This document shows positions 34,329 through 53,348 of a DNA stretch of 64,000 nt, in pieces. Made by a program: the position numbers and the translations under genes. This stretch comes from Streptomyces sp. B21-083. Its GTDB lineage: Bacteria > Actinomycetota > Actinomycetes > Streptomycetales > Streptomycetaceae. Under the pieces are notes generated by a model. That model saw nothing but the letters and a program-made list of their open reading frames with translations, had not been told where the DNA came from and made no database searches. Location: assembly GCF_036898825.1 (NCBI RefSeq), contig NZ_JARUND010000002.1, positions 496,001-560,000 on the forward strand. Direction: 5' to 3'. Position 1 is the stretch's first letter; the number at the start of each line of letters is the position of its first letter.

Positions 34329-34367
34329 CCCACCCGGCAGCGGCGCGCGCGGTCGTCTGTGACGCGT

Positions 34368-36169: not shown

Positions 36170-36254
36170 GCCGCTGGTCCTCGGTCAGCACGTGGAGCTG
36201 ACACATGACGGACCCGGCGCAGGGGCGACCCTGGGGACTGGAGGGGCCGGGAGG

Positions 36255-36457
36255 TCAGGTTCGGCGGCGTCTGGCGATGGTGCAGCCGATCAAGGCGGTG
36301 CCGACAGCGACGAGGCCCAGACCGGCGGCTGTTTCGGCAGATCCTGAAACGCGAAGTCACGGCAATCGAGGTCGGCTTGGGCATGTGCGATGCCTGACAG
36401 CGGTGCGAGTGCGGCGACGGCCAGGCATGCGCCAACCACCGTGTTACGACATCTCAT
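36255..36457 (-). pseudogene. Small secreted excalibur-like protein, frameshifted and internally deleted
   Basis: ATG 36457 has a strong GGGAGG site and opens a signal peptide (TVVGACLAVAALAPLSG, IAHAQA) followed by DLDCRDFAFQ, the start of an excalibur-type calcium-binding motif. The frame then runs into a stop, while another frame continues with a C-terminal membrane anchor (GLGLVAVGTALIGCTIARRRRT, stop at 36255). The middle, including the second Cys of the motif, is gone, so the gene is broken. Confidence 0.6.
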
Positions 36458-36560
36458 AGCGATCCTCCCGCTCGGTCACGTTCCCGCATCGACGTTATGG
36501 ACCGGGGGGTTTGGCGTGGTGCCCGGCGGGACGCCGGGACAGTCACTTCCAGATGGGCTG

Positions 36561-36658
36561 CGGGCAGGCACGCCCTCGGTGACACCGTCACCCTCCCGGT
36601 CCGCGACGAGGTGGCCGCGCTCGCCGTCAAGGTCCAGGACCACACTGGCTACGAATGA
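36561..36658 (+). pseudogene. Short C-terminal gene remnant, unrecognised
   Basis: The last 28 codons before TGA 36656 read ALGDTVTLPVRDEVAAL then AVKVQDHTGYE, which is more protein-like than the neighbouring frames. No start or upstream part remains, and the family is not recognised. Confidence 0.25.
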
Positions 36659-36692
36659 AACGAACACAGGCCCTGGCCGGGCAGCCCCGGGG

Positions 36693-37361: not shown

Positions 37362-37795
37362 GACGACCCCTCACGGGCAGGCGATGACTGAGCAGATGCT
37401 GCCCTACCGGAAATTCCGTACACCGGGCGGGGTGCCCGGGCGGGAGCACCCACGCCATCCGGCGAGGCGCGCTGCGGGCGTACCGGACCGTCGGCCGGCC
37501 AGGACGTCGCCGGGGTGGGGTCCGTGTCGAGTGTCGAGTGCAGGTGTCGACGAGGGGGAAATGCTGTGCTTCCGCTGACGTAGGGGGATGACGTGTCAGC
37601 ACTGACTTCACAACGGCCGCGGCCGCGTCGTCGGAAGAGTTCGGCGACCAGGCCACGCTCCGCCGCCGGCACGGTGACCGTCTCCCCGGCGCGAGACGCC
37701 CCCGGCACGCCTGCCGCATGCCCGCCGGAACCGCTCGTCCGTCGTACTCGTCTTGTGCGCTGACTGTGTGGGAGCAAGGAAAGCGGGGGAACGTC
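37362..37795. other. Divergent intergenic region, little recognised
   Basis: 434 bp between the HNH-like lipoprotein and the S8 protease. Its minus-strand frame (GETVTVPAAERGLVAELF) is faintly protein-like and could be decayed coding sequence. No clear operator or hairpin was seen. Confidence 0.3.
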
Positions 37796-38923
37796 GTGAT
37801 GCGGAACATGACGAGGGCCGGTCTCACGGTGATGGCCATCGGGGCCGTACTCGGGGCCTCTGCCTGCGGCGGCGACGCCGACGCGGCGGCGGGGGCCGGA
37901 AACGGGGGGACACTCCGCGCGCACGGCAAGGAGTCCCCCGTGCCGCCCGCCGGGGCCGGGGTGTCGTTCGACAAGGCGCCCGCGTCGGCCGGCATCGTGG
38001 GCACGTCGTCCGGAGCAGTGCGAAGCGCGGCGGCTTCGCTCACCCGGCACGTGCCGTGGAACCTGGACATTCTGGACCAGCGGTCGCGGCCCCTGAACGG
38101 AAAGCTCACCACCACCGCCACGGGCAAGGGCGTTCACGTCTATGTGATCGACACGGGGATGGACATCGCCCACACGGAGTTCGGCGGACGCGCCCACCTG
38201 GGCGCCGACTTCGTGGGCGCGGGGGACTCCGGCGACTGTTTCAGCGAGGACGGGATCGGCCACGGCACGTTCGTCGCGGGCGTCATCGGCGGGGCGAAGT
38301 ACGGGGTGGCGCCCAAGGCGCAACTCGTCCGGGTCCAGGGCATCCTGTGCGAGAGCGCGGGCGGCGGCTCCCCCGCCGCTGCCGAGGCCGCTCTGGTGAA
38401 GTCGGTCAAGTGGGTCACCGCGCACGCGCAGAAGCCCGCGGTGGTGAACATGTCTCTCAACCTCGGCCACCGGTCGGCGGCCCTGGAGTCCGCCGTGAAG
38501 AAGATGGTCGACGCGGGAATCCCGACGGTGGTGTCGGCCGGCAACTTCCATGACGACGCCTGCAAGCACTCCCCCGCCGGCGTCCCCGGCACCATCGTCG
38601 TGGCGGCCTCCACGACGAACGACCGCCCGTGGAGCGACGGCGGCTCCTACGGTTCCGGCTACGGACGGTGCGTGGACCTGTACGCCCCCGGCCAGAAGGT
38701 GACCGCCGCCCTCGCCGGCGGCGGCACGGTCACGGAGGAGGGCGGCGCGACGTCCTGGGCCGCACCCCATGCGACCGGCGTGATCGCCCTGTACCTGTCG
38801 GCCCACCCCCACGCCACGGCCGCCCAGGTCCACACCTGGCTGGACCACACAGCCACCCTCGGCGCCCTGCACGGCGTACGCTCCGACACCCCCAACCGGC
38901 TGCTCAACACCGGCGGCCTCTGA
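37796..38923 (+). CDS. Subtilisin-like serine protease (S8), probable lipoprotein
   Basis: 375 residues from GTG 37796 (ATG at 37799 also possible; GGGGGAA site). The signal ends in GASACGG, a lipobox, so the enzyme is probably tethered to the membrane. A short propeptide is followed by the S8 domain with the triad Asp in YVIDTGMD (about 118), His in GHGTFVAG (about 156) and Ser in GATSWAAPHATG (about 319). The usual GTSMA is changed to ATSWA, but the Ser is kept. Fungal proteinase-K-like order of motifs (PWNLDILDQR) is visible. It would degrade extracellular protein. Confidence 0.9.
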   Translation: MMRNMTRAGLTVMAIGAVLGASACGGDADAAAGAGNGGTLRAHGKESPVPPAGAGVSFDKAPASAGIVGTSSGAVRSAAASLTRHVPWNLDILDQRSRPLNGKLTTTATGKGVHVYVIDTGMDIAHTEFGGRAHLGADFVGAGDSGDCFSEDGIGHGTFVAGVIGGAKYGVAPKAQLVRVQGILCESAGGGSPAAAEAALVKSVKWVTAHAQKPAVVNMSLNLGHRSAALESAVKKMVDAGIPTVVSAGNFHDDACKHSPAGVPGTIVVAASTTNDRPWSDGGSYGSGYGRCVDLYAPGQKVTAALAGGGTVTEEGGATSWAAPHATGVIALYLSAHPHATAAQVHTWLDHTATLGALHGVRSDTPNRLLNTGGL

Positions 38924-39001
38924 CCGGGCCCGGTCGCACCTGCGAGGGGGGCGCGCCCCGGCGGGCGCTGCTCCTGTTCTCGTCGGCACCGTCAGTGACG
39001 C

Positions 39002-39234
39002 TCAGCGTCCGGTCGCCCCGAGGAACACCACCAGGTCGGCGATGACGAGCACGGCGGGCGGAGAGGAAGGTGGGCCCAGTCGTCGACCCGCCCCACGGCG
39101 AGCAACGAGCCGCCGCCGAGCAGCAACGCGACTACGGCGCCGGTGGCTGCGAGGGTCCACCGCGCGGCCTCCCTGCTGTCGGCAACGGAGGCCAGCGGCG
39201 CGGGATCTTCTGCAGCAACCCGCCGGTCGGCGCT
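39002..39234 (-). pseudogene. Remnant of a small membrane protein, frameshifted
   Basis: A frame with one convincing membrane span (ARWTLAATGAVVALLLGGG) continues to about 39064. The neighbouring frame then gives a second span (VLVIADLVVFLGATGR) to a stop at 39002. The change of frame suggests a broken two-span membrane protein, joined at its upstream end to a dehydrogenase remnant. The family is not recognised. Confidence 0.35.
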
Positions 39235-39247
39235 GTCGCCCTGTTGC

Positions 39248-39352
39248 TCCGGATGCGGTGGCGCCGATGATCGCGGCGGTGAGGTTTTCGATCTTCGGCT
39301 CGTGAACGTTCTCCACCCGGATGTCGCCGGAGGCGTGAAATAACGCGTTCCC
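39248..39352 (-). pseudogene. N-terminal remnant of a zinc-dependent alcohol dehydrogenase
   Basis: About 34 residues (ALFHASGDIRVENVHEP, then KIENLTAAIIGATASG) match the conserved start of medium-chain zinc alcohol dehydrogenases just up to the point where the first zinc ligand is expected. The rest is absent, replaced by an unrelated membrane-protein remnant. Confidence 0.5.
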
Positions 39353-39438
39353 TCCAATAGACGGAACGGTCGGCCACACCACGTCCGTGCCGACGCGGTG
39401 TGAGTACGGGGGGTGAGGGAGCCTGTGGCGGACCGGGC

Positions 39439-40383
39439 TCAGAAGACGAGCACCACTCGGCCGCGCAAGCCGCCCTGGGCGAGGAGGCGGTGGGCCTCGA
39501 CGGCCTGCTCGACGGGCAGGGTCCGGGCCACCCGCAGCGTCAGGCGGTCTTCCTCCGCGAGCTTACGCAGGCGTTCGAGGTGGGCGTGTTCGCGGGCGTA
39601 AGCAGCCACGAACGTCTGCTGGATCGTGACGCCGCGCTCACGCTCGGCGGTGGCGAGTTCTCCCATGGCCGAGGTGGCTACCCGGCCGCCGTCGCGTACG
39701 GCCCGGCCGGCGTCGGCGGCGATACCGGCACAGTCCACCAGCCCGTCCACGCCCTCCGGGGCGTGCTTGCGGACCTGGTCGGCGAAGTCCTCCCCGCGCG
39801 GGACGACGATGTCGGCACCCAGGTCCCGGACGAGCTGCTCGTCCTTGGGCGCGGCGTCGGCGATCACGCGAAGGCCGTCGGCCTTCGCCAGCTGCACGGC
39901 GTATCCGCCGACCGCGCCGGCGGCCCCGACCACCGCGACGGTCCCGTGAGCGGGCATGGCGAGCAGGTCCAGAGCCATCCGTGCGGTCAGCCCGTTCATC
40001 GCCAGCGTGGCGGCCTGCGCGTCGCTGGCCCCCTGTGGGGCGAGCACGACGGAGTCCGCCGGGACGACCAGGTACTCGGCGTAGGCACCGTGGGTGCCGG
40101 AGGTCACGGCGATCACCGAGACCCGGTCACCGACACTGACGCCGGTCTGCACGCCGGAGCCGACCTGGTCGACGATCCCGGCCGCTTCCATGCCCGGCAC
40201 ATACGGGGGCTCCGCATCGTCGACGAACACGTACCCCTGGCGCACCATCGCGTCGATCGGGTTGACCGTCGCGGCGCTCACCCGGATCCGGATCTCTCCC
40301 GCGCCCGCCTCGGGCACCGGAAGCTCCAGAAGACGCAAGGATTCGGGTCCGCCGAACTCACTCACACCAATGGCTTTCATCAC
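39439..40383 (-). CDS. Quinone oxidoreductase-like NADP-dependent MDR
   Basis: 314 residues of the zinc-free medium-chain reductase group: N-terminal ATVNPIDAMVRQG, PYVPGMEAAGIV, and the NADPH motif VVGAAGAVGGYAVQLA (about 150-165). It lacks the structural-zinc Cys cluster. GTG 40383 or ATG 40380 follow GGAGGG. It reduces quinones or enones with NADPH. It is divergent from a broken flavodoxin-like gene, which could have been a partner in redox defence. Confidence 0.9.
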   Translation of the reverse strand: MMKAIGVSEFGGPESLRLLELPVPEAGAGEIRIRVSAATVNPIDAMVRQGYVFVDDAEPPYVPGMEAAGIVDQVGSGVQTGVSVGDRVSVIAVTSGTHGAYAEYLVVPADSVVLAPQGASDAQAATLAMNGLTARMALDLLAMPAHGTVAVVGAAGAVGGYAVQLAKADGLRVIADAAPKDEQLVRDLGADIVVPRGEDFADQVRKHAPEGVDGLVDCAGIAADAGRAVRDGGRVATSAMGELATAERERGVTIQQTFVAAYAREHAHLERLRKLAEEDRLTLRVARTLPVEQAVEAHRLLAQGGLRGRVVLVF

Positions 40384-40760: not shown

Positions 40761-40867
40761 GACAAGAAGACCGCGGCCGACCGGGAGCCCGGATGCCGAC
40801 ACCGGTGGTGCGTTCTGACCATGCGTCGTTCGAGGCCATGGACGCCGCACCGGTGTCGAAGGGTGCC

Positions 40868-42244
40868 CTACGGTTTCATCGAAGGGGGCTCGTTTCTCTT
40901 AAGTCCGGCTTGGCCGGGCCTGCAGACGGTGACGGTCGTGGTGTTGGTGGCCGTGGTGCCCTTCGAGTTGATCAGTTCGGCCCGGTACACGTAGGTGCCG
41001 TCGGGCTTGTCCGTGAAGGTCGTCTCGACCGACTGCGAAGTGCCTCTGACCGTGTCGGGCACCCGTGCGGAGACGAGCTTGCCGTTCTCGTACAGGCGGT
41101 AGAAGCTGCTCCGGGTCCCGTGCCGGAGGTTCATCGTGACGCTGTAGTCGCCGTCGTGGCGGCCGTGCGTCCGTCTGCTGGTGTTCGAGAGGGTGCCGGC
41201 GCCCGGTGCCGAAGTGTTCTGGACGAAGCTCCGCAGCGAGTCCCGCACGGCGAAGTAGGCCGGCTTGGGGTTGTAGTCCTCGTCGTACATGAGCGGCTTC
41301 GCGCCGGGCAGCCAGGTGTAGGCGTGCTTGTCGGTGAAACCCCAGAAGCTGATGTCCCGGATTCCGGCCGCCAGCGCCTCGGCGACGATGTCCCCGTAGA
41401 TCTGCGTCTGCTGGTCGACGTCGTAGGTGTGCACATCGAGTTCGGTGATGGCGACGTCGAGTCCGAGAGCGTGGTAGGAGTTCGCCATCTGCGTGATGAC
41501 CCCGGGCTCGGGCCCCGCCTGGGTCTCGTGCATCTCAAGGCCCACGCCGTCGATGGGGACGCCGTCGGCGACCAGACCGGCAACGAGGTCGTAGAGCTCC
41601 TGACGCTTCTCCGGGGAGAACTCCACCAGGGATTCGTTGATGAACAGCTTGGCCTCGGGATCGGCGGCGTGCGCGATGCGGAATGCTTCCGCGATGTAGT
41701 CCGCGCCGAGAACCTTGTAGAAGTCGTTGTGCACCAGGCCCGTTCCGCCCTCGATGGAGAACGGCTCGGTCACGACGTCCCACCGGTTTATCTTGCCGGC
41801 GTAGCGGTCCATGATCGTGTTGAAGTGGGTGTTCATGACCGTGCGGAGTTTGTCCGGGTCGGTGATCGCGGTCACGTAGTCCGGGTTGCAGCAGCCTGAG
41901 ATGAGGCCGTGCCCCTTGACCACCATGTGGTTGTCTTCCGCGAAGCGGACCAGCCGGTCGAGACCGGCGAAGTCGAAGCTGCCTTCGTGGGGTTGGACGA
42001 AGTTCCACTTGAGCTCGTTCTCGGGCGACAGGCTGTTGAACTGATCCGCCAGGACCTCGCCGAACTGAGGTTCGTCGAGGTAGTTGGGGTTGATCGCCCC
42101 GGACCCGATGAGGATCCCCTCGCGCGCCGCCAGTTCGCGGAGCGTGGGGGACGAACTGGCTGAGGCGTCGGCGACTGGCACGGCCGCCGTCGCCAGTCCC
42201 ATGGTTACGGTTGCGAGCGCCGCAACGATGCGGTGCGTTCTCAT
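40868..42244 (-). CDS. Secreted GH10 glycoside hydrolase, divergent; candidate tomatinase-type saponinase or xylanase
   Basis: 458 residues. Signal peptide 1-29 (ALATVTMGLATAAVPVADASA). The GH10 barrel spans about 32-340: ENELKWNFVQPHEGSFDF is the family hallmark, the acid Glu lies in WDVVTEPF (about 158; usually WDVVNEAF) and the nucleophile in VAITELDVHTY (about 268). The usual GHTLVWH loop reads KGHGLISGCCNPDYV, so the conserved Trp and His of the xylose-binding subsite are absent. A C-terminal Ig-like domain (about 365-450) follows. Start ATG 42244 is placed before the signal; GCGAGG lies upstream. Linked to GH1, a sugar importer and two GH3 genes, this resembles tomatinase loci (TomA is GH10) of Clavibacter and Streptomyces scabies. 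An endo-xylanase remains possible. Confidence 0.8.
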   Translation of the reverse strand: MRTHRIVAALATVTMGLATAAVPVADASASSSPTLRELAAREGILIGSGAINPNYLDEPQFGEVLADQFNSLSPENELKWNFVQPHEGSFDFAGLDRLVRFAEDNHMVVKGHGLISGCCNPDYVTAITDPDKLRTVMNTHFNTIMDRYAGKINRWDVVTEPFSIEGGTGLVHNDFYKVLGADYIAEAFRIAHAADPEAKLFINESLVEFSPEKRQELYDLVAGLVADGVPIDGVGLEMHETQAGPEPGVITQMANSYHALGLDVAITELDVHTYDVDQQTQIYGDIVAEALAAGIRDISFWGFTDKHAYTWLPGAKPLMYDEDYNPKPAYFAVRDSLRSFVQNTSAPGAGTLSNTSRRTHGRHDGDYSVTMNLRHGTRSSFYRLYENGKLVSARVPDTVRGTSQSVETTFTDKPDGTYVYRAELINSKGTTATNTTTVTVCRPGQAGLKRNEPPSMKP

Positions 42245-42482
42245 TGAATGGTGCCTCGCCTTCATGTGTGATGGATGTCCCGAGAGCGCGGCAGCGCGCC
42301 GGGGTACGGGGTGATTCGCGGGAGGCGGGATCGCCGGCAGGGTTCGGCCGGGGGCCGCCGCTCGGGGTTCGCCGACTGCGGGAACCGACCTGGCCAGTGC
42401 TGCGTCGGGCACATCGTCGCCGTATGACTTCCTCATGTGGCCCCGACGTCGTGAAGGGTCCGTCCGGACCCACCGGGTCATC

Positions 42483-43916
42483 TCACTGGTTGGCGAGGAC
42501 CGGGATGACCTTCGTCGTGCAGAGCTCGGAGAGCCAGTGCGCGCTCAGCTTCGGAATGCGTTCCTGAGTCTCGTAGTCGACGCGGATGATTCCGAAGCGA
42601 GGGCCGTAGCCTTCGGCCCATTCGAAGTTGTCGAGCAGCGACCACACGATATATCCGACGACGTTCGCGCCGAGTTCCCGAGCGCGGTGGGTCGCCGTTG
42701 CGTGATCGATGAGGAACTGCGTCCGGTCGCGATCCAGGACCACGCGCTGTCCGTTGGATTCGCTGACCGCATCCGCGAATGCCGCGCCGTTCTCCATGAC
42801 CATGATGGGCAACTCGGGGAACTCCTTCGAGAGGGCGACCAGGTGGTCCTCCAGCCCTCGTGGCTCGATTCCCCAGTCCATGGCCGTTCGCTCCAGATCG
42901 TCGCGGCGAACGATTTCGATGCGCTCCGAGCCCGGAAAGGCGGTGCCTCCAGTGGCTTCGGTGGCGGGGTCGAAGTCCGGCCTCACGCGTACGTGCATGA
43001 CCTCGTAGTAGTTGACCCCGAGCAGGTCGATCGGTTGATGGCAGATCTCCACGTCGCCCGGGTGCACGAAGCTCCAGTCGGTGAAGGTCCGGGTGTCGTC
43101 GAGGAGGTCGGCCGGGTACTCCCCGCGGAGCATCGGCCCCGTGAAGACGCGGTTGGCCACGGCGTCGAAGCGACGCGCGGCCTCGGCGTCCTCCGGGGTC
43201 TCGGCTTCGATGCGGAAGACGTTCAGCACAACGGAGATCTGAGCGTCGGGGTGCTTCACGGTTCGCCGCAGTGCCGCCACCGCGAGCCCGTGCGAGAGGT
43301 TGAGATGATGTGCGGCCTTGAGTGCGTCCGCGTGGCTCTTCACACCGGGCGCGAACGCACCGCTGCCGTACCCGGCGAACGAGTTGTTCCACGGCTCGTT
43401 GTGCGTCGACCACATGGCGACCCGGTCTCCGAAGGCGGCGCCCACGATCTCCGCGTACCGCTCGAAGGCGAAGGCGGTCTCGCGTCCCCGCCAGCCGCCG
43501 TAGCGGTCCTCCAGTGCCTGCGGGAGATCCCAGTGGTTCAGCGTCACGATCGGTGTGATTCCGCGTGCGAGCAGGCCGTCGATGAGCCTCTGGTAGAACG
43601 CCAGGCCCTCTGGATTGACTTCGCCTTCACCCGTGGGCATCACACGCGGCCAGGAGATGGAGAACCGGTAGGCGTCGAGGCTGAGGGAGGCCATCAGGTC
43701 GAGATCGGTCTCGACCTGGTGATAGTGGTCGGCGGCGACGTCACCGGTTGCGCCCTGGGCGGTCTTTCCCGGCGTGCGGCTGAAGGTGTCCCAGATGGAC
43801 GGCCCCCGTCCGCCCTCGTCCGCGCCGCCTTCGATCTGGTAGGCGGCGGTCGCGGCGCCGAGGATGAAGTCGGGCGGGAACGTCAGATGCCCGCGAGCGA
43901 ACAAGTCGCAAGTCAT
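42483..43916 (-). CDS. GH1 beta-glucosidase family protein
   Basis: 477 residues, the full GH1 barrel without signal peptide, so cytoplasmic. Visible motifs are FILGAATAAYQIEGG at the N-terminus, the acid/base in STHNEPWN (about 172) and the nucleophile in MVMENGAAF (about 374), followed by the substrate-site WSLLDNFEWAEGY. ATG 43916 has GAGAGG nine bases upstream. It probably cleaves beta-glucosyl or beta-galactosyl residues of imported oligosaccharides. A 12-mer shared with the promoter of the ABC importer lies 38-49 bp upstream, so both are probably under the local TetR protein. The GH10 gene follows on the same strand after 238 bp. Confidence 0.93.
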   Translation of the reverse strand: MTCDLFARGHLTFPPDFILGAATAAYQIEGGADEGGRGPSIWDTFSRTPGKTAQGATGDVAADHYHQVETDLDLMASLSLDAYRFSISWPRVMPTGEGEVNPEGLAFYQRLIDGLLARGITPIVTLNHWDLPQALEDRYGGWRGRETAFAFERYAEIVGAAFGDRVAMWSTHNEPWNNSFAGYGSGAFAPGVKSHADALKAAHHLNLSHGLAVAALRRTVKHPDAQISVVLNVFRIEAETPEDAEAARRFDAVANRVFTGPMLRGEYPADLLDDTRTFTDWSFVHPGDVEICHQPIDLLGVNYYEVMHVRVRPDFDPATEATGGTAFPGSERIEIVRRDDLERTAMDWGIEPRGLEDHLVALSKEFPELPIMVMENGAAFADAVSESNGQRVVLDRDRTQFLIDHATATHRARELGANVVGYIVWSLLDNFEWAEGYGPRFGIIRVDYETQERIPKLSAHWLSELCTTKVIPVLANQ

Positions 43917-44415
43917 AAATCAGCCTCTCTGGTGACGTGGCGCCAAAACCTAACACCTGAACTGTAATCAGCACAGGGGCTGAACGAACTCTGGCGTCTC
44001 GTCCCCGGAGGGCCCTCACGCGGCGGCCGGTGTCCGGCGGCATCACAGCTGATCAGGGACGCGTGGGGTTCGTTGGTTGAAGGGCATGACCGAGCGCCGT
44101 GGGTGGGCGTGAACGGCCTTCCTTGAGGCGTGCCGCTCCAGCGAGTCGGAGCCTGGGGGCACTGAAGAGCGCACGTATGGGCGCAGGCGCGTGAGGTTCT
44201 CCGCGAGCGCGAACCCCATCGCCGCCGGCGCGCTCCCACCCCGTGCGTCAGGGGCTGCGCGCACACATGACCATGAGAAGGCAGGCTGCACGGCCCCCTT
44301 GCAGGGTCCCCGCGTGCGTCGGCGGTCCTGCCTCAGTTCCCTGCGCCCGCGATCGTTGGCCAGCTCGTCAGGTAACGAGCCCGACGTCGCCTGCGCCGTC
44401 GACGTCGACCGGCAT
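43917..44415. other. Intergenic region between GH1 and the TetR gene
   Basis: 499 bp. Apart from the operator-like 12-mer at 43954-43965 I see nothing recognisable; a minus-strand frame of about 80 codons (44043-44291) has no family resemblance. Confidence 0.4.
43954..43965 (-). promoter_or_regulatory. Shared operator-like box CACCTGAACTGT upstream of GH1
   Basis: It matches CACGTGAACTGT at 45144-45155 in 11 of 12 bases. It lies 38-49 bp upstream of the GH1 start, where a repressor would overlap the promoter. The matching base order is on the plus strand, although the gene is on the minus strand. Confidence 0.5.
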
Positions 44416-45066
44416 TCAGGCGGAGTCGTCGCCGTCGCGCCGGTCGGGTTCTTCCGGAGTCGGCTGCTGTGACCAGTGCGCCCGGGCAGCTGCCACGAGG
44501 CGCCAGAAGGCGTCGACGGCCTCGACGACGTCGAGGTCGTCGCGATATCGCCGCTGGAGCTGCAGTCCGTCCTGTACGGCGATCCCCAGGGTGGCGATCA
44601 CCTCCGCGCTGACCCCCATGGGGGCGCGCTCGGAAGCCTCGGGACCGGGATCGAGCGTCTGCGTCTGCGCCGAGTGGTAGTGCTCGACGAAGTAGGTGTG
44701 CGCGGGGTGATCGCGATCGATGGCCTCGGCGGAGAGGATGATGAACAGGGATGTCAGTCCCTCGTGCTCCGCGGAATGCCGCGCGACCTCCCGCGACCGG
44801 GTGGCGACATCGGTGGCGTGGAGCTCGGACAGGTAGTCGGCGACTGACGAGTCACGCAGACCGAGCACTTCTACGAGGAGTTCTTCCTTGTCGGCGAAGT
44901 GGTGAAGGACCCCTGTTTGTGTGAGACGCATGCGCCTGGCGAGCTCGCGCATCGACGAGTGCTCGTATCCGGATTCCGCGAAGAGCTCGGCTGCAGCGGC
45001 GATGATCTCTCGGCGGCGCTGAAGCCCCTTGCGATAGGGCCCCCGAGGCCCGGTGCGTTCCGCCAT
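44416..45066 (-). CDS. TetR-family transcriptional regulator of the GH10/GH1/GH3 locus
   Basis: 216 residues. The N-terminal helix-turn-helix is clear (REIIAAAAELFAESGYEHSS, RELARRMRLTQTGVLHHF, then ADKEELLVEVL), and the rest is an all-helical ligand domain (about 70-200) with an acidic tail. ATG 45066 has TTGAGGAC upstream. It stands between GH1 on the left (same strand) and the sugar importer operon on the right (divergent), and both of these carry the same 12-mer, so it probably represses both. TetR rather than LacI control of a sugar locus is unusual. Confidence 0.9.
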   Translation of the reverse strand: MAERTGPRGPYRKGLQRRREIIAAAAELFAESGYEHSSMRELARRMRLTQTGVLHHFADKEELLVEVLGLRDSSVADYLSELHATDVATRSREVARHSAEHEGLTSLFIILSAEAIDRDHPAHTYFVEHYHSAQTQTLDPGPEASERAPMGVSAEVIATLGIAVQDGLQLQRRYRDDLDVVEAVDAFWRLVAAARAHWSQQPTPEEPDRRDGDDSA

Positions 45067-45143
45067 GTCCTCAACATACAGCGAGGTGGTGTCGCGCTTG
45101 GCCCGAGTGCGGCCGTGACGATGAGAACTCCGCGAATACTTGT

Positions 45144-45155
45144 CACGTGAACTGT
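45144..45155 (+). promoter_or_regulatory. Shared operator-like box CACGTGAACTGT upstream of the sugar importer
   Basis: Same 12-mer as at 43954 with one change. It continues into TGAACTGTGTTGA, an imperfect inverted repeat (T.AAC...GTT.A), as expected for a TetR dimer. It lies 178-189 bp before the binding-protein ATG and 78-89 bp before the TetR ATG, within the divergent promoter region. Confidence 0.5.
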
Positions 45156-45332
45156 GTTGAGTGATACTGGCCGCCGCCGCACCTTCCGAGACGACACCTC
45201 AGCTGGGGACGCAGCGGCTTGTGCGACCTCCGGGCGACAGGGTTCGCGCATGACGCAGGAGCGCGCAGCGGCCCGGGGCGGCCGCCTTGTCGCCGCGGAT
45301 CTAGGCACATCGCCTGAGACAAAGGACTACAC

Positions 45333-46607
45333 ATGCGATCCACCCGAAGAGCCATCGCTGTGCTTGCAGCGGCCTCGCTGACCGTCCTCGCCGCTGGTTG
45401 CGGATCCAGCGACGAGGGCGACGCCGACGGCAAGATCACCCTCAAGGTGTCGACGTTCAGCGAGTGGGGGTACGGCGACCTGCTCAAGGAGTACCAGAAG
45501 CTTCACCCCGAGATCACCATCAAGCACAACCGCTTCGCCACGAGCGACGCGGCCAAGGAACAGTTCCAGACCGCCCTCGGCGCGGGCTCGGGGCTCGCCG
45601 ACGTGGTCGGTGTCGACAACAGCTGGCTCCCGCAGGTCCTGCAGCACCCGGACAACTTCGTGGACCTCTCCTCTTCGAAGGTCAAGGGCCGCTGGAAGGA
45701 CTGGACGTCCAAGCTCGCGACCACCAACGACGGCAAGCTGCTCGGCTACGCGACGGACATCGGCCCGCAGTCCATCGCGTACCGCAGCGACCTGTTCAAG
45801 GCGGCCGGCCTGCCGACGGATCGCGAAGCGGTGGCCAAGCTGTTCGGGGGCGACAAGGCGACATGGGACGACTTCTTCGCCGTCGGCGAGAAGTTCAAGG
45901 CCGCCAAGACGGGCCCGGCGTTCTACGACGCGTCAGCCTCGGTCGCGACCAGTTGGGGCGACCAGTACAAGGTGCTCTGGGAGGACCCCAAGACCGGCGA
46001 CATCATCGCAGGCCATAACAAGGACCTTCGGAACATCTACGACACGGTGACGTCGCACGAGGACCTCTCGGCACACCTGGCGCGGTGGAGCGAGGACTGG
46101 GTGAGCGCGTTCCAGAAAGACAAGTTCGCCGTCATGCTCGCACCGTCGTGGATGCTCGGCGTGATCAAGGGCAACGCTGCCGGCGTCAAGGGATGGGACA
46201 TCGCCGATGTCTTCCCCGGCGGGGGTGTCAACAGCGGCGGGTCGTACCTCACCGTGCCGACGCAGTCGAAGCACCCCAAGGAAGCGCAGGCGCTCGCGGA
46301 GTGGCTCACCGCTCCTGAGCAGCAGCTGAAGGCGTTCAAGACGACGGGTAACTTCCCCAGCCAGGTCGCGGCCCAGAGCAGCGACCAGTTGCAGAAGGTG
46401 ACCGATCCCTTCTTCAGCGATGCGCCCGTGGGCAAGATCCTCACCCACCGCGCGTCGGCGATCACCACTATTCCCTACAAGGGTGACAACTACTTCGCGA
46501 TCACGGCGGCGTTCAACAACGCGATCAACCGTGTCTCGGTCGACAGGACCGACTCTCCGAAGAAGTCGTGGGACACGTTCGTCGATGATCTGGACGCGCT
46601 GAAGTGA
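45333..46607 (+). CDS. Sugar ABC transporter substrate-binding lipoprotein (CUT1)
   Basis: 424 residues with a lipoprotein signal (LTVLAAGCGSSD, Cys about 23) and a family 1 sugar-binding domain (ITLKVSTFSEWGYGDLL, KEQFQTALGAGSGLADVV, PTQSKHPKEAQALAEWL). ATG 45333 has AAAGGAC. It is the first gene of an importer operon; a 36-bp perfect palindrome follows its stop. The neighbouring intracellular GH1 and GH3 enzymes suggest a beta-linked oligosaccharide as ligand. Confidence 0.92.
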   Translation: MRSTRRAIAVLAAASLTVLAAGCGSSDEGDADGKITLKVSTFSEWGYGDLLKEYQKLHPEITIKHNRFATSDAAKEQFQTALGAGSGLADVVGVDNSWLPQVLQHPDNFVDLSSSKVKGRWKDWTSKLATTNDGKLLGYATDIGPQSIAYRSDLFKAAGLPTDREAVAKLFGGDKATWDDFFAVGEKFKAAKTGPAFYDASASVATSWGDQYKVLWEDPKTGDIIAGHNKDLRNIYDTVTSHEDLSAHLARWSEDWVSAFQKDKFAVMLAPSWMLGVIKGNAAGVKGWDIADVFPGGGVNSGGSYLTVPTQSKHPKEAQALAEWLTAPEQQLKAFKTTGNFPSQVAAQSSDQLQKVTDPFFSDAPVGKILTHRASAITTIPYKGDNYFAITAAFNNAINRVSVDRTDSPKKSWDTFVDDLDALK

Positions 46608-46622
46608 CCGGTTCGTCCGCGC

Positions 46623-46658
46623 ACTCGGGGACGCCCGCCATGGCGGGCGTCCCCGAGT
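46623..46658. promoter_or_regulatory. 36-bp perfect palindrome between binding-protein and permease genes
   Basis: ACTCGGGGACGCCCGCCA followed at once by its reverse complement, 16 bp after the binding-protein stop. As RNA it would form a very stable hairpin. Such intercistronic hairpins usually lower read-through and protect the upstream message, giving an excess of binding protein over permease. Confidence 0.7.
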
Positions 46659-46678
46659 CACCACCGAAGGAAGAGCGC

Positions 46679-47758
46679 ATGGCCCATCCGGCAGCGAGCG
46701 CGTCGACCCGCACCGGCGCCTCCCCTCCACAACCGCCTGCCTCCTGGCGTCAGCGTCTCGGCCGCTGGGACATGAAGGCGTCGCCGTACGCCTATATCTC
46801 ACCGTTCTTCATACTGTTCGGGCTCGTCGGCCTGTTCCCGCTCCTCTACACCGCATACGTCTCGCTGCACGACTGGGACCTCATCGGCGGCCAGGGCGAC
46901 TTCGTCGGGCTCGACAACTTCACCTTCGTTCTCGATCAGCCGGTCTTCTGGGACTCGCTGGGCAACACCGTGAGCATCTTCCTGCTGTCGACGGTCCCCC
47001 AGATCGTGATCGCGCTCGTACTCGCCAGTCTTCTGCACGCGAACATCCGCGCGCGGACCTTCTGGCGGATGGGGGTGTTGCTGCCGTACGTCATCGCCCC
47101 CGTCGCCGTGTCGCTGATTTTCTCGCGCATGTTCGCGGACCAGTCCGGCCTGGTCAACGCGGTGCTCGGGCATCTGGGAGTGGACCCGATCGGCTGGCAC
47201 CGGGACAGCATGCCGGCGCACATCGTCATCGCGAACATGGTCAACTTCCGGTGGACCGGCTTCAACACGCTCGTGCTGCTCGCCGCCATGCAGGCGATCT
47301 CCCGTGACCTGTACGAAGCGGCGATCCTCGACAGCGCGGGCCGGATGCGGCAGTTCTTCTCCGTCACGGTTCCGTCCGTGCGTCCGACGATCATCTTCGT
47401 CGTGATCACGTCCACGATCGGCGGCCTGCAGATCTTCGACGAGCCGCGGCTGTACGACACGCAGGGGCTCGGCGGGAGCTCAGGGCAGTGGAAGACGATC
47501 ACGCTGTACCTGTACGAGCTCGGTTGGAATCAGCAAAGGCTGGGCCGCGCCGCAGCCGTCGCATGGCTGCTCTTCCTGCTGATCATCGTGTTCGCGCTGG
47601 TCAGCAACTGGCTGTCGCGCCGCATCGCCTCCGGCGACGATCCAGTCGCCGTCCCCCGAAAGGCACGCCGCGCCGCCCGACGAGACGCGAGCGGGTCAGC
47701 AGCTGGTACGCCCGCCTTCTCCGCATCGTCCGGTGACACACCCGGGAGCAACACGTGA
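46679..47758 (+). CDS. Sugar ABC transporter permease, MalF type
   Basis: 359 residues with six membrane spans between about 40 and 310, an EAA-type loop (LYEAAILDSAGRMRQFF, about 222-238), and long cytoplasmic tails: a P/S/T-rich N-terminus and a basic, A/S-rich C-terminus. ATG 46679 has GAAGGAAG upstream and lies after the intercistronic hairpin. Its last codons overlap the GTG start of the partner permease. No ATPase gene is in the operon. Confidence 0.92.
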   Translation: MAHPAASASTRTGASPPQPPASWRQRLGRWDMKASPYAYISPFFILFGLVGLFPLLYTAYVSLHDWDLIGGQGDFVGLDNFTFVLDQPVFWDSLGNTVSIFLLSTVPQIVIALVLASLLHANIRARTFWRMGVLLPYVIAPVAVSLIFSRMFADQSGLVNAVLGHLGVDPIGWHRDSMPAHIVIANMVNFRWTGFNTLVLLAAMQAISRDLYEAAILDSAGRMRQFFSVTVPSVRPTIIFVVITSTIGGLQIFDEPRLYDTQGLGGSSGQWKTITLYLYELGWNQQRLGRAAAVAWLLFLLIIVFALVSNWLSRRIASGDDPVAVPRKARRAARRDASGSAAGTPAFSASSGDTPGSNT

Positions 47759-48669
47759 GCAGACCCTCCGTCCCGTACATCGAGCAGACATCCGGCCGCG
47801 GTGCGGCCCGGGCGGCACGCCGCCGTCGAGGGCGGGATCACGGTGCCGCGCGCCGGCCCGGACGGATGACCTACGTCGTCCTCACAGTGGTCGCGCTCAT
47901 CTCGATCTTCCCGCTCTACTACGCGCTCCTGCTCGCGTCGTCGACATCGGCGGAGGTCGCGCAGCACCCGATCCCCTCGCTGATCCCGGGCGGGCATCTG
48001 GGCGACAACCTCGTACGCGTCTTCGAGTCCGACATCGATCTGCCGCGCGCGGTCTGGAACTCCGTCTTCGTCTCGGTGACGACGGCGCTCGCGGTCGTGT
48101 TCCTGTCCACGCTGGCGGGCTTCGCCTTCGCGAAGCTTCGGTTCAAAGGGCGGGCCGGTCTTCTCGCGTTCGTCGTGGCCACCATGGCGGTCCCGACACA
48201 GCTGGGCGTGGTGCCGCTGTTCATCGTCATGCGCGAGCTGGGACTGACGGGAAGCCTGTGGGCAGTGATCATCCCTGGCCTCGCATCCGCCTTCGGGGTG
48301 TTCTGGATGACGCAGTACCTTCAGGCGGCCCTGCCCTATGAGCTCGTCGAGGCCGCCCGAATCGACGGTGCCACGACATTCCGGATCTTCCGGTCCATTG
48401 TGCTGCCGGCCGCCCGCCCCGCGTTGGCGATGCTCGGACTGTTCACCTTCATCGGGGCGTGGACCAACTTCTTCTGGCCGTCGATCGTGCTGGGAACGAC
48501 CAACCCGACGCTGCCTGTCGCTCTGCAGCTGCTGCAAACCGGGTTCTTCAAGGACATCCCCCTGATCATGACCGGCGTGCTCGTGTCGGTGGTGCCGCTG
48601 CTGACGCTGTTCGTCATCCTCGGCAAGCAGCTCGTCGCCGGCGTCATGCAGGGAGCCATCAAGGGGTGA
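47755..48669 (+). CDS. Sugar ABC transporter permease, MalG type
   Basis: 304 residues with a basic N-terminal tail of about 35 residues, six spans and an EAA loop (YELVEAARIDGATTFRIF). It ends in the MalG-typical AGVMQGAIKG. GTG 47755 overlaps the stop of the first permease (GTGA), so the two are coupled. It is the second channel subunit for the putative beta-oligosaccharide or lycotetraose-like sugar. Confidence 0.92.
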   Translation: MSRPSVPYIEQTSGRGAARAARRRRGRDHGAARRPGRMTYVVLTVVALISIFPLYYALLLASSTSAEVAQHPIPSLIPGGHLGDNLVRVFESDIDLPRAVWNSVFVSVTTALAVVFLSTLAGFAFAKLRFKGRAGLLAFVVATMAVPTQLGVVPLFIVMRELGLTGSLWAVIIPGLASAFGVFWMTQYLQAALPYELVEAARIDGATTFRIFRSIVLPAARPALAMLGLFTFIGAWTNFFWPSIVLGTTNPTLPVALQLLQTGFFKDIPLIMTGVLVSVVPLLTLFVILGKQLVAGVMQGAIKG

Positions 48670-48764
48670 CGCCGCGGTGTCCTGCCGCTGAGTCCTGGCC
48701 CCCACCTCGCCGAGGCCGCCCCCGAGGCCCCGGAGACGAATGTGAGAGGAACTACCGACCCCCC

Positions 48765-50600
48765 ATGCACAACACGACCGCACCGGACCGCATCGAATTC
48801 CGCGACCTCAACGGCAACGGCCGCATGGACCCGTACGAGGACCCGCGGCTCAGCGCCGAGGAACGTACCGAGGACCTGTTGTCCCGGCTCTCGCTCGAAG
48901 AGAAGGTCGGTCTCCTCTTCCACACGGTCATCGAGATCGGCCCAGAAGGCACTGTCCTCGAAGAGCCCGGCGCGATCAGCAAGTCGCCCACCAGCGAGGT
49001 GATCCTCGACAGGGCGATGAACCACTTCAACGTGCACCGCATCGAAGACGCCCGGGCGGCCGCACGATGGAACAACGCGATCCAGCGGCTGGCCGAGAAG
49101 ACGCCGCACGGCATCCCGGTGACGATCTCCACCGACCCGCGCCACGGGTTCCTGGAGAATGTCGGGGCGTCGTTCACGGCGGGCCCGTTCTCGCAGTGGC
49201 CAGACGGGCTCGGCCTCGCGGCGCTTCGCGACCCGGATGTCGTGCGCGAGTTCGCGCGACGGGCGCGCGACGAGTACCGCGCCGTGGGAATCCGCATGGC
49301 GCTGCATCCCCAGGTCGACCTGGCCAGCGAGCCCAGGTGGGCACGTCAGCTCCAGACCTTCGGCGCTGACACCGATCTCGTGGTGGCGTACACACGCGCG
49401 TACCTCGAAGGCTTCCAGGGCGCCACTCCCGACTCGACGAGCGTCGCCTGCGTCACCAAGCACTTCCCCGGCGCCGGCGCTCAACTGGACGGCGAGGACG
49501 CGCACTTCCCGTACGGCCGCGAGCAGGTCTACCCGGGCGGGGCGTTCGAGGAGCACCTGCGCCCGTTCACCGCCGCCGTGGAACACGGCACCGCCGCGAT
49601 CATGCCGTACTACGGGATGCCCGTCGGGCTCGAGATCGACGGCGTACCGATCGAGGAAGCCGGGTTCGGGTACAACAAGCAGATCCTCACCGGACTCCTG
49701 CGCGAGAAGCTCGGCTACGACGGGCTTATCATCACGGACTGGGAGCTGGTGAACGACAACCCCGTCGGGGACCAGGTCCTGCCGGCCCGCGCGTGGGGCG
49801 TCGAGGAGCTCGACGCCCGCGAGCGCCTGGTCAGGATCCTCGACGCCGGCGCGGACCAGTTCGGCGGCGAGCAGTGCACGGACCTGCTGCTCGACCTCGT
49901 ACGGGACGGCGTCGTCGCGGAGAGCAGAATCGACGAGTCGGCGCGCCGCGTCCTGCTGGTCAAGTTCCGGCTCGGCCTCTTCGACGACCCCTTCGTCGAC
50001 GAGGAGGCAGCCGCGGCCATCGTGGGCAACGCCGAGACCCGTCAGGCCGGCTCGGAGGCGCAGGCCCGATCGGTCACCGTCCTCAAGAACTCCGTCGTCC
50101 TCGGCGCGCCCCTCCTCCCCCTTTCCAGAGGCGCGAGAGTGTACGCGGAGGGCATCGAACCGGAGGCCCTCGCACGGGCCGTCACTCCCGCGGCCACGCC
50201 ACAGGAGGCGGACCTCGCCATCGTGCGCATCGACGCGCCCTTCGAACCACGGGACGACCTGTTCCTGGAGTCGTACTTCCACCAGGGGTCTCTCGAACTG
50301 CCGCCCGGCCTCGTGCACCGACTGGGCATGATCGCCCAGCAGACCCCGCTCATCGTGGATGTCGCCCTGGACCGCCCCGCCATTCTCACGCCGCTGATCG
50401 ACGCGCTCGCCGGCCTCACGGTGACCTTCGGCGTCTCGGACGACGCCTTGCTCGCCGCCCTCACCGGCCGCATCACCCCCCAGGGCAGACTCCCCGTCGA
50501 GCTGCCGCGATCGATGCAGGCCGTGCGAGAGTCCGCGCCTGACGCGCCGGCGAACACCCCCGACCCGCTGTTCCCCCTGGGATCCGGGCTGGAGATCTGA
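48765..50600 (+). CDS. GH3 glycoside hydrolase (beta-glucosidase/exo-glucanase type)
   Basis: 611 residues, no signal peptide. It has the GH3 N-terminal barrel (RLSLEEKVGLLFHTV, ISTDPRHGF, CVTKHFPGAGAQLDGEDAHF) and the nucleophile Asp in LIITDWE (about 325), then a shortened C-terminal alpha/beta sandwich ending in PLGSGLEI. The first residues (FRDLNGNGRMDPYEDP) resemble a calcium loop and occur in GH3 proteins of this subgroup. ATG 48765 lacks a well-placed ribosome site; GAGAGGAAC lies further upstream. The gene is 95 bp after the importer and 28 bp before a second GH3. It probably removes terminal beta-D-glucose or xylose after uptake. Confidence 0.92.
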   Translation: MHNTTAPDRIEFRDLNGNGRMDPYEDPRLSAEERTEDLLSRLSLEEKVGLLFHTVIEIGPEGTVLEEPGAISKSPTSEVILDRAMNHFNVHRIEDARAAARWNNAIQRLAEKTPHGIPVTISTDPRHGFLENVGASFTAGPFSQWPDGLGLAALRDPDVVREFARRARDEYRAVGIRMALHPQVDLASEPRWARQLQTFGADTDLVVAYTRAYLEGFQGATPDSTSVACVTKHFPGAGAQLDGEDAHFPYGREQVYPGGAFEEHLRPFTAAVEHGTAAIMPYYGMPVGLEIDGVPIEEAGFGYNKQILTGLLREKLGYDGLIITDWELVNDNPVGDQVLPARAWGVEELDARERLVRILDAGADQFGGEQCTDLLLDLVRDGVVAESRIDESARRVLLVKFRLGLFDDPFVDEEAAAAIVGNAETRQAGSEAQARSVTVLKNSVVLGAPLLPLSRGARVYAEGIEPEALARAVTPAATPQEADLAIVRIDAPFEPRDDLFLESYFHQGSLELPPGLVHRLGMIAQQTPLIVDVALDRPAILTPLIDALAGLTVTFGVSDDALLAALTGRITPQGRLPVELPRSMQAVRESAPDAPANTPDPLFPLGSGLEI

Positions 50601-50628
50601 TGTCTCGTTCGTACAGAAGGAGCACGCC

Positions 50629-53049
50629 ATGACCGACGCACGGTCCCGCGCCGTCGAGTTGCTGGGTCGGATGACCATGCACGAGAAGGTCGCCCAGCTG
50701 ACATCGGTCATACCGACGATGCTCTTCGACGCGAAGGGCATCCGTCCTGAGGTCGCCGCGGCCAAGCTCGCCAACGGCATCGGCTACGTCGAACCGCACA
50801 TGGGCGGGTTCCCGGCGAACGCGGCCGAACTCGCCCGGCTGAACAACGCGTTGCAGCACCATCTTGTGCACAGGACCCGGCTGGGCATTCCGGCGATCAT
50901 GCATATCGAGGCGCTCAACGGCGTGAACGCGCCCACCTTCACCTCGTTTCCCACCGCGATCGCTCTCGCCGCCACCTGGGACACAGCCGGGGTCGGCGAG
51001 ATGGCCGCCCTGACGCGCCGGCAGATGCGATCCGTGGGCCTGCACCACGCCCTGTCCCCGCTGCTCGATGTCGCCCGCGACGCGCGATGGGGCCGCGTAC
51101 ACGAGACCTACGGTGAGGATCCGTACCTGGTCAGTGCGCTCGGTGTGTCCTTCGTACGCCATCTGCAGGGCGAGTCGTTCCAGGACGGGGTCATCGCCAC
51201 CGGCAAGCACTTCCTCGGGTACGCCATGAGCGAGGCCGGTCTCAACATGGCGACCGTGCCGGTGGGAGCGCGCGAGCTGCGGGAGGTGTACGCGCGGCCC
51301 TTCGCCGCCGCGATCCAGCTCGCCGGTCTCGGATCGATAATGAACTCGCTCGCCGACTGGGACGGAGTTCCCGCGGCCGCCGACCCTCGCGTCTTCCGCG
51401 AGATGCTGCGCGACCAGCTCGGCTTCGACGGCACCGTCGTGTCGGACTGGTCCTCGATCGAGAACCTCGTGACACATCATCGCGCCGCGCGCGACGCACG
51501 CGAAGCCGGCGTACTGGGGCTGCGGGCCGGCATCGACGTGGAGATGCCCGAGCCGTTCGGCTACGGCGACAACCTCGTCGAGGCCGTCCGCGCCGGCGAG
51601 ATCCCCGAAACGACCGTCGACGAGTCGGTGGTGCGCGTACTGACGCACAAGTTCCAGCTGGGCCTGTTCGACAACCCGTACGTGGAGACCGACCCGATCG
51701 AGATCATGTCCGTGGCCCAGGAAGGACGTGACCTCTCGCTGCGCCTGGCGCGCGAGTCGGTCACCCTGCTCAAGAACGCCGGCGGAGTGCTTCCGCTGAG
51801 CGGCGCTCCCCGTATCGCCCTCATCGGGCCGCACGCCGACCGGATCGGCGCGGCCTTCGCGCCGTACACCTTCCCCTCCTTCATCGCACTCACCCGTGCG
51901 ATGCTGAAGGGCGCGACGAGCTCGATGGTCGGTGTCGACGACATCGGCTCCTTCGGCCCTGACGACGCCTACGTGCACCGGGAGATCGGCGACCTTCTCG
52001 CGATGGACGAGGACGAGTTCGCCCGGACGCAGTACGGAGCGGTCTCCCTCGCGGACGCGCTGCGCGCCGCGCTGCCCGACGCGGACATCGTCGTTGCCGC
52101 GGGATGCGGGATCACCGATGGCGCCGAGGGGATCGAAGCCGCCGTGGAGGCCGCGCGTGACGCCGACATCGTGATCCTGGCGCTCGGCGGCCTGGCCCGG
52201 TGGTTCTTCACCGAACGGACGGAGGGCGAGGGCGCGGACACCGCCGATGTGCGGCTGCCGGACGTGCAGCGCCGGCTCGTGCACGAGGTCGCCGGGCTCG
52301 GCCGGGCGACCGTCGGCGTGATCTTCTCCGGCCGCCCCGTCGCCCTCGGTGACGTCGAGTCCCGACTCGACGCGATCCTGCTCGGGTACTACGGCTCGCA
52401 GTACGGCACACGTGCCGTCGCGGACATCCTGACCGGCGCGGCCGAGCCGCAAGGACGCCTGCCCTACACGATCCCCCGCGCCGGCGGACAGGTTCCCGTT
52501 CACGCGGGCCAGCGGTTCGGCAGCGGATACCGCCGCCACGAAGGCGACCCGCACGGCGGCTACGTGGACGAGTCGGCGGCACCGCTCTACCCGTTCGGCC
52601 ACGGCCTCACGTACACCCGTTTCACCTACTCCGACCTCAGGCTCAGCAGCTCAGCGGTCGCGCCCGACGGCACCGTCGACGTCACCGTCACCGTCGAGAA
52701 CAGCGGCGACCGCCCGGGCGTGGAGCTCGTCCAGCTCTACGTCGAGGACGACGCCCCCGGCATCGCGCGACCGGCACTCCAACTCACAGGGTTCCACCAG
52801 CTCGAACTGCAGCCGGGCGAGTCGGCAACGGTGACGTTCGCGCTGGAGCTTCCTCTCCTGGCCTATCTGTCCCTGGACGACAGATGGGTCGTGGACCCGG
52901 GCCCCATGTGGATCTCTGTCGGCTCGTCGTCGAGCGACCTCCCCCTGCGGAGCCGCTTGGACGTCGTCGGTGACACCGCCGACGTCACCGAGCGGAGGGT
53001 CTATCTGACCCACTCCACCACGACCTCGCGTCCCGCGACCGGGACGTGA
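50629..53049 (+). CDS. GH3 glycoside hydrolase with C-terminal Fn3-like domain
   Basis: 806 residues, no signal peptide. The order is GH3 barrel (MHEKVAQLTSVIPTML, DARWGRVHETYGEDP, GKHFLGYAMSEAGLN, nucleophile Asp in TVVSDWSS at about 271), alpha/beta sandwich (VTLLKNAGGVLPLSG) and a Fn3-like domain (about 680-780, FTYSDLRLSSSAV). A long insert between 385 and 520 is usual for beta-xylosidase/beta-glucosidase members. ATG 50629 has AGAAGGAG upstream. It ends the operon before a strong terminator. Together with the other GH3 and the GH1 enzyme it covers the beta-Glc, beta-Xyl and beta-Gal links of a branched oligosaccharide. Confidence 0.93.
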   Translation: MTDARSRAVELLGRMTMHEKVAQLTSVIPTMLFDAKGIRPEVAAAKLANGIGYVEPHMGGFPANAAELARLNNALQHHLVHRTRLGIPAIMHIEALNGVNAPTFTSFPTAIALAATWDTAGVGEMAALTRRQMRSVGLHHALSPLLDVARDARWGRVHETYGEDPYLVSALGVSFVRHLQGESFQDGVIATGKHFLGYAMSEAGLNMATVPVGARELREVYARPFAAAIQLAGLGSIMNSLADWDGVPAAADPRVFREMLRDQLGFDGTVVSDWSSIENLVTHHRAARDAREAGVLGLRAGIDVEMPEPFGYGDNLVEAVRAGEIPETTVDESVVRVLTHKFQLGLFDNPYVETDPIEIMSVAQEGRDLSLRLARESVTLLKNAGGVLPLSGAPRIALIGPHADRIGAAFAPYTFPSFIALTRAMLKGATSSMVGVDDIGSFGPDDAYVHREIGDLLAMDEDEFARTQYGAVSLADALRAALPDADIVVAAGCGITDGAEGIEAAVEAARDADIVILALGGLARWFFTERTEGEGADTADVRLPDVQRRLVHEVAGLGRATVGVIFSGRPVALGDVESRLDAILLGYYGSQYGTRAVADILTGAAEPQGRLPYTIPRAGGQVPVHAGQRFGSGYRRHEGDPHGGYVDESAAPLYPFGHGLTYTRFTYSDLRLSSSAVAPDGTVDVTVTVENSGDRPGVELVQLYVEDDAPGIARPALQLTGFHQLELQPGESATVTFALELPLLAYLSLDDRWVVDPGPMWISVGSSSSDLPLRSRLDVVGDTADVTERRVYLTHSTTTSRPATGT

Positions 53050-53099
53050 CGCGCAAGACCGTCGCCCGAAGCACCGCCGCATAGCCGGCGCCCGCAGCA

Positions 53100-53137
53100 G
53101 CCCGTGGGGAGCGGCCCTGACACCGCTCCCCACGGGC
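53100..53137. terminator. Terminator after the GH3 operon
   Basis: A perfect 15-bp stem (GCCCGTGGGGAGCGG with its complement) around an 8-base loop, followed by CCTTT. It also lies downstream of the convergent sigma-factor gene, so it may serve both. Confidence 0.8.
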
Positions 53138-53348
53138 CCTTTCGCCCAGCGTTGGTGTGCGGGGCGCGGACGCCGGTGCCGCGGCGCCAGGACGCGGCGT
53201 CGCGTTCGAGGACCGGACCGGGCCGGGCCTCCGTCGCGCAACCCCAACCGCACCCGCGCGCGGGTGACGCCGCCGAACGCGTCGCACCGCTCCTCCGTTT
53301 CCACCGCGACACGCGCGCCACCGCACAGCGTGAGCGTCCACACCGGGA

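Follow-up and report, generated by a model that had tools for sequence, protein, structure and literature searches.

A probable tomA (tomatinase-type) locus with proposed saponin-sugar uptake, carried as one cassette in Streptomyces sp. B21-083

A stretch of 64,000 nucleotides (hereafter the window) from the 10.5-Mb genome of Streptomyces sp. B21-083 (contig NZ_JARUND010000002.1, positions 496,001 to 560,000) was analysed, and a 12.3 kb cassette within it was compared with tomA (tomatinase) loci of other actinobacteria. The cassette encodes a secreted protein of glycoside hydrolase family 10 (GH10), a GH1 enzyme, a TetR-family regulator, a CUT1 importer and two GH3 enzymes (GH3a and GH3b). On the comparisons given below it is probably orthologous to the tomA locus and was probably acquired as a single, self-contained unit, with a proposed function in the uptake of saponin sugar.

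Genes of the cassette

Genes were located from a list of open reading frames combined with a Pfam profile search (table 1). The original prediction had described a 12-kb block of GH10, GH1, TetR, CUT1 importer and two GH3 genes, and all eight genes were recovered there, within window positions 40868–53049. Every one of the eight frames is open across the length of its family match. The grouping is not a matter of chance, since the same eight genes are collinear in Streptomyces scabiei 87.22 and in genome G110. The GH10 frame is open from 42481 (40868–42481, minus strand); a start at 42265 (465 residues) or 42244 (458 residues) is more likely because relatives begin at the signal peptide, and a signal-peptide-like stretch, read by eye, was aligned with the starts of TomA proteins. 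GH1 lies upstream of tomA on the same strand. For GH3a a start at 48765 is likelier than one at 48459 because the database product (P0121) has 611 residues; its closest solved chain is 9ul7 ('beta-glucosidase', 912 bits), of which no mention turned up in a literature search. Solved relatives of the solute-binding protein (SBP) include 5ixp and 8bfy, the latter a putative cellobiose-binding protein. No match to an ABC ATPase family was obtained with Pfam among the eight cassette proteins; a shared ATPase of the MsiK type, encoded elsewhere, is assumed.

Table 1. Coordinates of features in the window and of the matching genes in a C. michiganensis record (window positions unless another record is named)
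Feature	Coordinates	Strand	Evidence and remarks
Whole cassette	40832..53152		bounds set by DNA homology to genome G110, 91–94% identity
tomA-type secreted GH10 (predicted), one C-terminal immunoglobulin-like (Ig-like) domain	40868..42265	-	Pfam GH10, 253.5 bits; 80% to S. turgidiscabies P0007, 59% to C. michiganensis P0076; TomA clade, SH-aLRT 100
Predicted cytoplasmic GH1 beta-glucosidase	42483..43916	-	NCBIfam TIGR03356, 530.9 bits (cut-off 478.5); 85% S. scabiei, 73% C. michiganensis, 78% Arthrobacter StoSoilB13
Candidate TetR operator upstream of GH1-tomA, CACCTGAACTGTAAT	43954..43968		CANNTGAACTGTNWT match; same place in G110 and S. scabiei
TetR-family regulator, divergent from importer	44416..45066	-	Pfam TetR_N; 89% S. 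scabiei, 67% C. michiganensis
Candidate TetR operator in tetR-SBP intergenic region, CACGTGAACTGTGTT	45144..45158		CANNTGAACTGTNWT match
CUT1 SBP, predicted lipoprotein	45333..46607	+	Pfam SBP_bac_8; lipobox LAAGC by eye; 75% C. michiganensis
CUT1 permease 1	46604..47758	+	Pfam BPD_transp_1; 83% C. michiganensis
CUT1 permease 2	47755..48669	+	Pfam BPD_transp_1; 75% C. michiganensis
Predicted cytoplasmic GH3a, 611 residues	48765..50600	+	Pfam GH3 N-terminal domain; 77% C. michiganensis
Predicted cytoplasmic GH3b, 806 residues, beta-xylosidase/beta-glucosidase type	50629..53049	+	Pfam GH3 N, C and Fn3-like; closest solved chain 7zb3 'Beta-xylosidase'; 87% S. scabiei, 72% Arthrobacter StoSoilB13
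Perfect 15-bp inverted repeat 3' of GH3b	53100..53137		terminator-like, without a clear T run; near right end of conserved block
Second sugar-uptake group: GH78 alpha-L-rhamnosidase	877..3732
Second sugar-uptake group: SBP_bac_1	3566..6469
Second sugar-uptake group: permease	6522..7478
Second sugar-uptake group: GH43 with ricin-type lectin	8346..9776
C. michiganensis NZ_CP076350.1: GH3a	32556..34346
C. michiganensis NZ_CP076350.1: permeases	34461..35369, 35492..36439
C. michiganensis NZ_CP076350.1: SBP	36526..37698
C. michiganensis NZ_CP076350.1: TetR	38043..38615
C. michiganensis NZ_CP076350.1: GH1	38875..40302
C. michiganensis NZ_CP076350.1: tomA	41970..43307

The GH10 protein and the TomA clade

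The search for relatives of the GH10 protein gave 859 matches, 120 of which were listed and used for residue counts; a tree was built from 61 GH10 domains picked from 203 scored sequences (quick search, no bootstrap) and its branches were rated by the approximate likelihood ratio test of the Shimodaira-Hasegawa type (SH-aLRT). A branch with SH-aLRT 100 separates the 41 tree rows that have serine at the position of W85 from the 20 canonical GH10 rows. A GH10 tree had been proposed as a check on the tomatinase reading, and in it the window protein was placed with TomA of S. scabiei, S. turgidiscabies and Clavibacter michiganensis, away from the canonical enzymes; it joins P0003, the TomA of Streptomyces sp. 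WI04-05B (94), and then the scab Streptomyces (95). Its nearest named kin within the clade are the tomA products of scab-associated Streptomyces (P0003 and loci L005–L010), and identity to named relatives is 87% for WI04-05B, 80–82% for S. turgidiscabies Car8 and 59–60% for C. michiganensis. The C. michiganensis sequence (P0076) carries DKHLYTW, TLKSGIN, ENLVEF and GLTIGS, peptides decoded by hand from published polymerase chain reaction primers for C. michiganensis tomA, and is therefore C. michiganensis TomA. The three other GH10 proteins of the same genome fall outside the TomA clade.

Residues of the active site were read from a HMMER alignment to solved xylanases, with W85, Q88 and N127 in a numbering that we take to follow S. 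lividans XlnA. In the window protein W of 'VWH' is replaced by S, Q of 'HSQ' by C, and N before the acid/base glutamate by T, while both catalytic glutamates are intact, so that the predicted loss of xylanase-subsite residues was borne out at all three columns. GH10 xylanases (such as S. halstedii Xys1, 1nq6, and Cex) have the fold and both catalytic glutamates in common with the window protein; they keep W85, Q88 and N127, whereas here all three are replaced. The substitutions extend to the 120 listed relatives, all of which have S at the W85 position and T, S, A or I at the N127 position and retain both catalytic glutamates and H207. W and N were retained in 69 of 69 other GH10 loci compared, including the three of this genome. 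AlphaFold2 (16 aligned sequences) returned a confident barrel for the GH10 protein, and the 50 matches listed by Foldseek were all GH10 xylanases, their mutants or designs on that fold. An adjacent cysteine pair occupies the S87/Q88 columns in 97 of the 120 relatives; in the remaining 23 the Q88 column holds F or L. A functional role of this unusual pair, as a candidate vicinal disulfide, is conceivable because in other proteins disulfides between adjacent cysteines are known to contact a bound sugar (PMC12102755, in excerpt).

Gene order, borders and promoter motif

Gene order was compared with that of other tomA loci, a check that had also been proposed, and was found to be shared with both reference loci. 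In S. scabiei 87.22 all eight genes (GH10, GH1, TetR, SBP, two permeases, GH3a and GH3b) stand in the same order and on the same strands, with 77–89% protein identity; in G110 the same eight are collinear at 91–96%, and in S. stelliscabiei, S. europaeiscabiei, S. acidiscabies and S. turgidiscabies (L006–L009) the order holds for the seven genes within reach. The S. scabiei locus, which belongs to a colonization region (CR), also has both promoter motifs in common with the window; unlike the window it has about 1.9 kb between GH1 and tetR, with a frame that looks LacI-like by eye (L099–L100). This frame may represent a second regulator of the S. scabiei cassette. S. turgidiscabies Car8 has two diverged copies of the tomA cassette (L005 and L009) on different contigs.

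In the chp/tomA island of C. michiganensis (NZ_CP076350.1) seven of the eight genes (TomA, GH1, TetR, SBP, two permeases and GH3a) follow the linear order of the window at 59–83% identity, with tomA and GH1 on the importer's strand, in contrast to the opposite strand in Streptomyces. The same arrangement is found in Agromyces albus (L012; seven orthologues, 60–81%, same linear order). As tomA lies outside GH1 in both arrangements, both genes must have changed strand, which is not a simple flip of the pair. The Clavibacter record came from the plasmid collection; none was present among the best 80 of 324 TomA matches in the scan of whole-genome contigs, and P0076 at 1e-100 matched 1 of 299 sampled genomes from the family of the Microbacterium genome taken as centre, namely that centre itself. 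On the Arthrobacter StoSoilB13 plasmid NZ_AP024648.1, a span of about 12 kb (85317–97588) holds tomA, GH3a, GH3b and GH1, with no match on that record to the window SBP (1e-120), TetR (1e-30) or permeases (1e-80). In Arthrobacter NtRootA1 (L014), tomA, GH3a and GH3b (56, 65 and 72%) surround permeases and a TetR of only 30–34% identity. These two gene sets suggest that TomA and the glycosidases form a functional core whose importer is replaceable, which would fit the chemistry of alpha-tomatine, where one bond joins the sugars to the aglycone and three join sugar to sugar: one to be cut outside the cell, three inside.

The borders were compared at the DNA level with 40 kb from S. scabiei and 60 kb from G110, and in both comparisons homology breaks off at either end of the eight-gene cassette. 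Beyond the span used as its bounds, G110 gave three short matches far outside (68–76%, fewer than 230 bases); homology to S. scabiei spans 40907–53146, with no other match of at least 150 bases. GC content is 0.65–0.70 across most of the block versus about 0.70–0.72 beside it, and the window has other stretches equally low. For an empty site, each flank was searched in 199 genomes of the genus (matches in 101 and 35), and none was listed with both flanks adjacent. Of 199 sampled genomes of the genus, two contain TomA. The SBP was detected in 2 of 199 and 3 of 392, in every case together with tomA (G000, G110 and G598, where its coordinates match the gene in S. scabiei), and a search of 394 sampled genomes of the family for GH3a at 1e-250 gave a single genome with a match.

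An alignment of promoter regions from the window, G110, S. scabiei and L005 yielded a 15-bp motif, CANNTGAACTGTNWT. The window has exactly two copies of it, against none in 100 shuffles, and the whole genome has exactly two, both in the cassette; a reversed-pattern control gave 0. Two copies each are present in L006–L010 and in G110. We infer that these sites are bound by the cassette's TetR. TetR is an unusual choice of regulator for a sugar operon, which makes a hydrophobic aglycone plausible as inducer.

Several other features of the window were noted. A gene of the tyrosine-recombinase (Phage_integrase) family lies about 9 kb right of the cassette (62209–63978). Two small secreted-looking proteins flank the cassette (36693–37361 and 54714–55307); they carry the similar motifs DHLISLQLGG and DHFVPLELGG and look HNH-nuclease-like by eye, with no Pfam match at 1e-5. 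The second sugar-uptake group, at the left edge (877–9776), is also lower in GC.

Proposed function and alternatives

The tomatinase-type reading of the original prediction was supported through the TomA-clade GH10 and the gene order shared with the S. scabiei and C. michiganensis loci; S. scabiei 87.22 reportedly has a functional tomatinase (Seipke and Loria, 2008). By orthology, the cassette would act on alpha-tomatine. The secreted GH10 protein would cut the beta-linked bond between galactose and aglycone of alpha-tomatine or a close saponin and free the intact oligosaccharide (lycotetraose, in the case of tomatine), which the CUT1 importer, powered by an ATPase encoded elsewhere (MsiK-type), would bring into the cell. 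There GH1 and the two GH3 enzymes, predicted to be cytoplasmic, would open the three remaining beta bonds, and TetR, bound at the two CANNTGAACTGTNWT sites, would keep both transcription units repressed until released by an inducer (oligosaccharide or aglycone). The literature was consulted in excerpts (PMC10711302, PMC4057263, PMC8844524, PMC10653915, PMC9597252, PMC7692107, PMC8305413, PMC12089995 and PMC12102755); as described there, steroidal glycoalkaloid degradation by Sphingobium RC1 and Glutamicibacter S2 also involves bacterial removal of saponin sugars, with other enzyme families (GH3, GH39, GH78 and GH106 in RC1; GH2, GH3 and GH78 in S2 and an Arthrobacter cluster).

Certain observations weigh against this reading. 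TomA-clade proteins are widespread in soil actinobacteria (for example Nonomuraea, Kribbella, Planobispora and Terrabacter), and tomatine is therefore not necessarily the substrate of every member; relatives of the SBP are often named cellobiose-binding. A search of the C. michiganensis record NZ_CP076350.1 for GH3b (limit 1e-120) gave no match, and the closest GH3b match in the Agromyces genome has 49% identity, so three intracellular glycosidases per cassette are not obligatory. Database entries of Streptomyces mirabilis, S. olindensis, Streptodolium and Yinghuangia contain GH3a and SBP, and these organisms are not named among the 120 listed of the 859 TomA matches; they may be hidden members of larger clusters, or the importer module may exist without tomA, a case absent from the sampled genomes (199 and 392). 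CANNTGAACTGTNWT is not exactly kept in L005 or in Agromyces L012, so its conservation beyond the nearest lineages is partial, and it was derived from the same promoters that it marks, the genome-wide count being the independent part. Finally, TomA of S. turgidiscabies and of C. michiganensis has a second C-terminal Ig-like domain, which the window GH10 lacks, and a search for this domain downstream of the window tomA gave only chance-level matches (E 2 and above). The left edge of the cassette coincides with the place where other TomA proteins carry that domain. The frames of S. scabiei, S. turgidiscabies and Agromyces TomA continue past the end of the short form, that of S. scabiei reaching 570 residues counted from the start of the match. 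The short form is common to the window protein, P0001–P0004 and P0014 (446–456 residues in those relatives), P0003 of the CR.C strain WI04-05B among them with 456; in G110 the single stop within the match falls at residue 465, at the extreme C-terminus of the match.

The host genome gave no match to the nitric-oxide-synthase family, which we take to be a marker of the thaxtomin cluster, and a thaxtomin cluster is therefore unlikely; a thaxtomin-type pathogenicity context was considered and is not supported (nec1 was not searched for). The Streptomyces CR is described as a mobile element in which about 16 conserved genes surround tomA, and tomA as present in four subtypes of mobile elements (PMC10711302, in excerpt). 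The window cassette may belong to a CR.B, CR.C or CR.D element or to another vehicle.

Among the alternatives, the same machinery may serve a different substrate, another steroidal or triterpenoid glycoside of soil or rhizosphere, with tomatine at most a side substrate. This is unlikely, although the clade spans genera with no stated tomato link among the matches listed, the host may not be a scab pathogen given the missing nitric-oxide-synthase match, and eight strains that lack txt are on record as carrying tomA and/or nec1 (PMC10711302, in excerpt); the kinship with tomA of scab-associated Streptomyces and the collinearity of all eight genes with the S. scabiei locus speak against it. The nearest named kin point to tomatine-type glycoalkaloids and the breadth of the clade to saponins generally. 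An ordinary locus for xylan or cello-oligosaccharide utilization with a drifted GH10 is very improbable: the GH10 fold with its Foldseek matches to xylanases, the cellobiose binders related to the SBP and the general frequency of GH1 and GH3 in such loci would suit it, but the replaced W85, Q88 and N127 columns, the separation from the genome's three other GH10 proteins, the TetR conserved with the cassette and the tomA-locus gene order do not, and a xylan locus was rejected on tree placement and active-site residues. Least probable of all is an island remnant no longer used, for which the sharp borders, surroundings unlike those of two relatives, the modest GC dip and the missing Ig-like domain could be cited, against eight open frames, intact catalytic residues, both promoter motifs and a short GH10 form that other TomA proteins share.

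As a probable tomA orthologue, the locus is, judged by its sequence, a further member of the known tomA kind and not a new kind. The new detail consists of the sharp borders relative to two relatives, the 15-bp motif restricted to the cassette and the Arthrobacter plasmid with tomA and three intracellular glycosidases. It is tentatively proposed, as a possibility short of an even chance, that this is a free-standing saponin-utilization cassette moving among soil actinobacteria apart from virulence islands, in which TetR would sense the aglycone or oligosaccharide at a cassette-specific operator, the GH10 site would have been rebuilt around adjacent cysteines (possibly a vicinal disulfide) where xylanases have the Trp/Gln subsite, and the inherited unit would consist of TomA and three intracellular glycosidases, with an exchangeable importer. 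Here a complete tomatinase-type cassette stands in surroundings without DNA homology to the compared stretch of the S. scabiei island and in a genome without a nitric-oxide-synthase match, which is relevant to the question of whether tomA serves virulence or feeding in soil; if the proposal is true, tomatinase as a 'virulence gene' would be one particular instance of a saponin-feeding trait that is widespread in soil.

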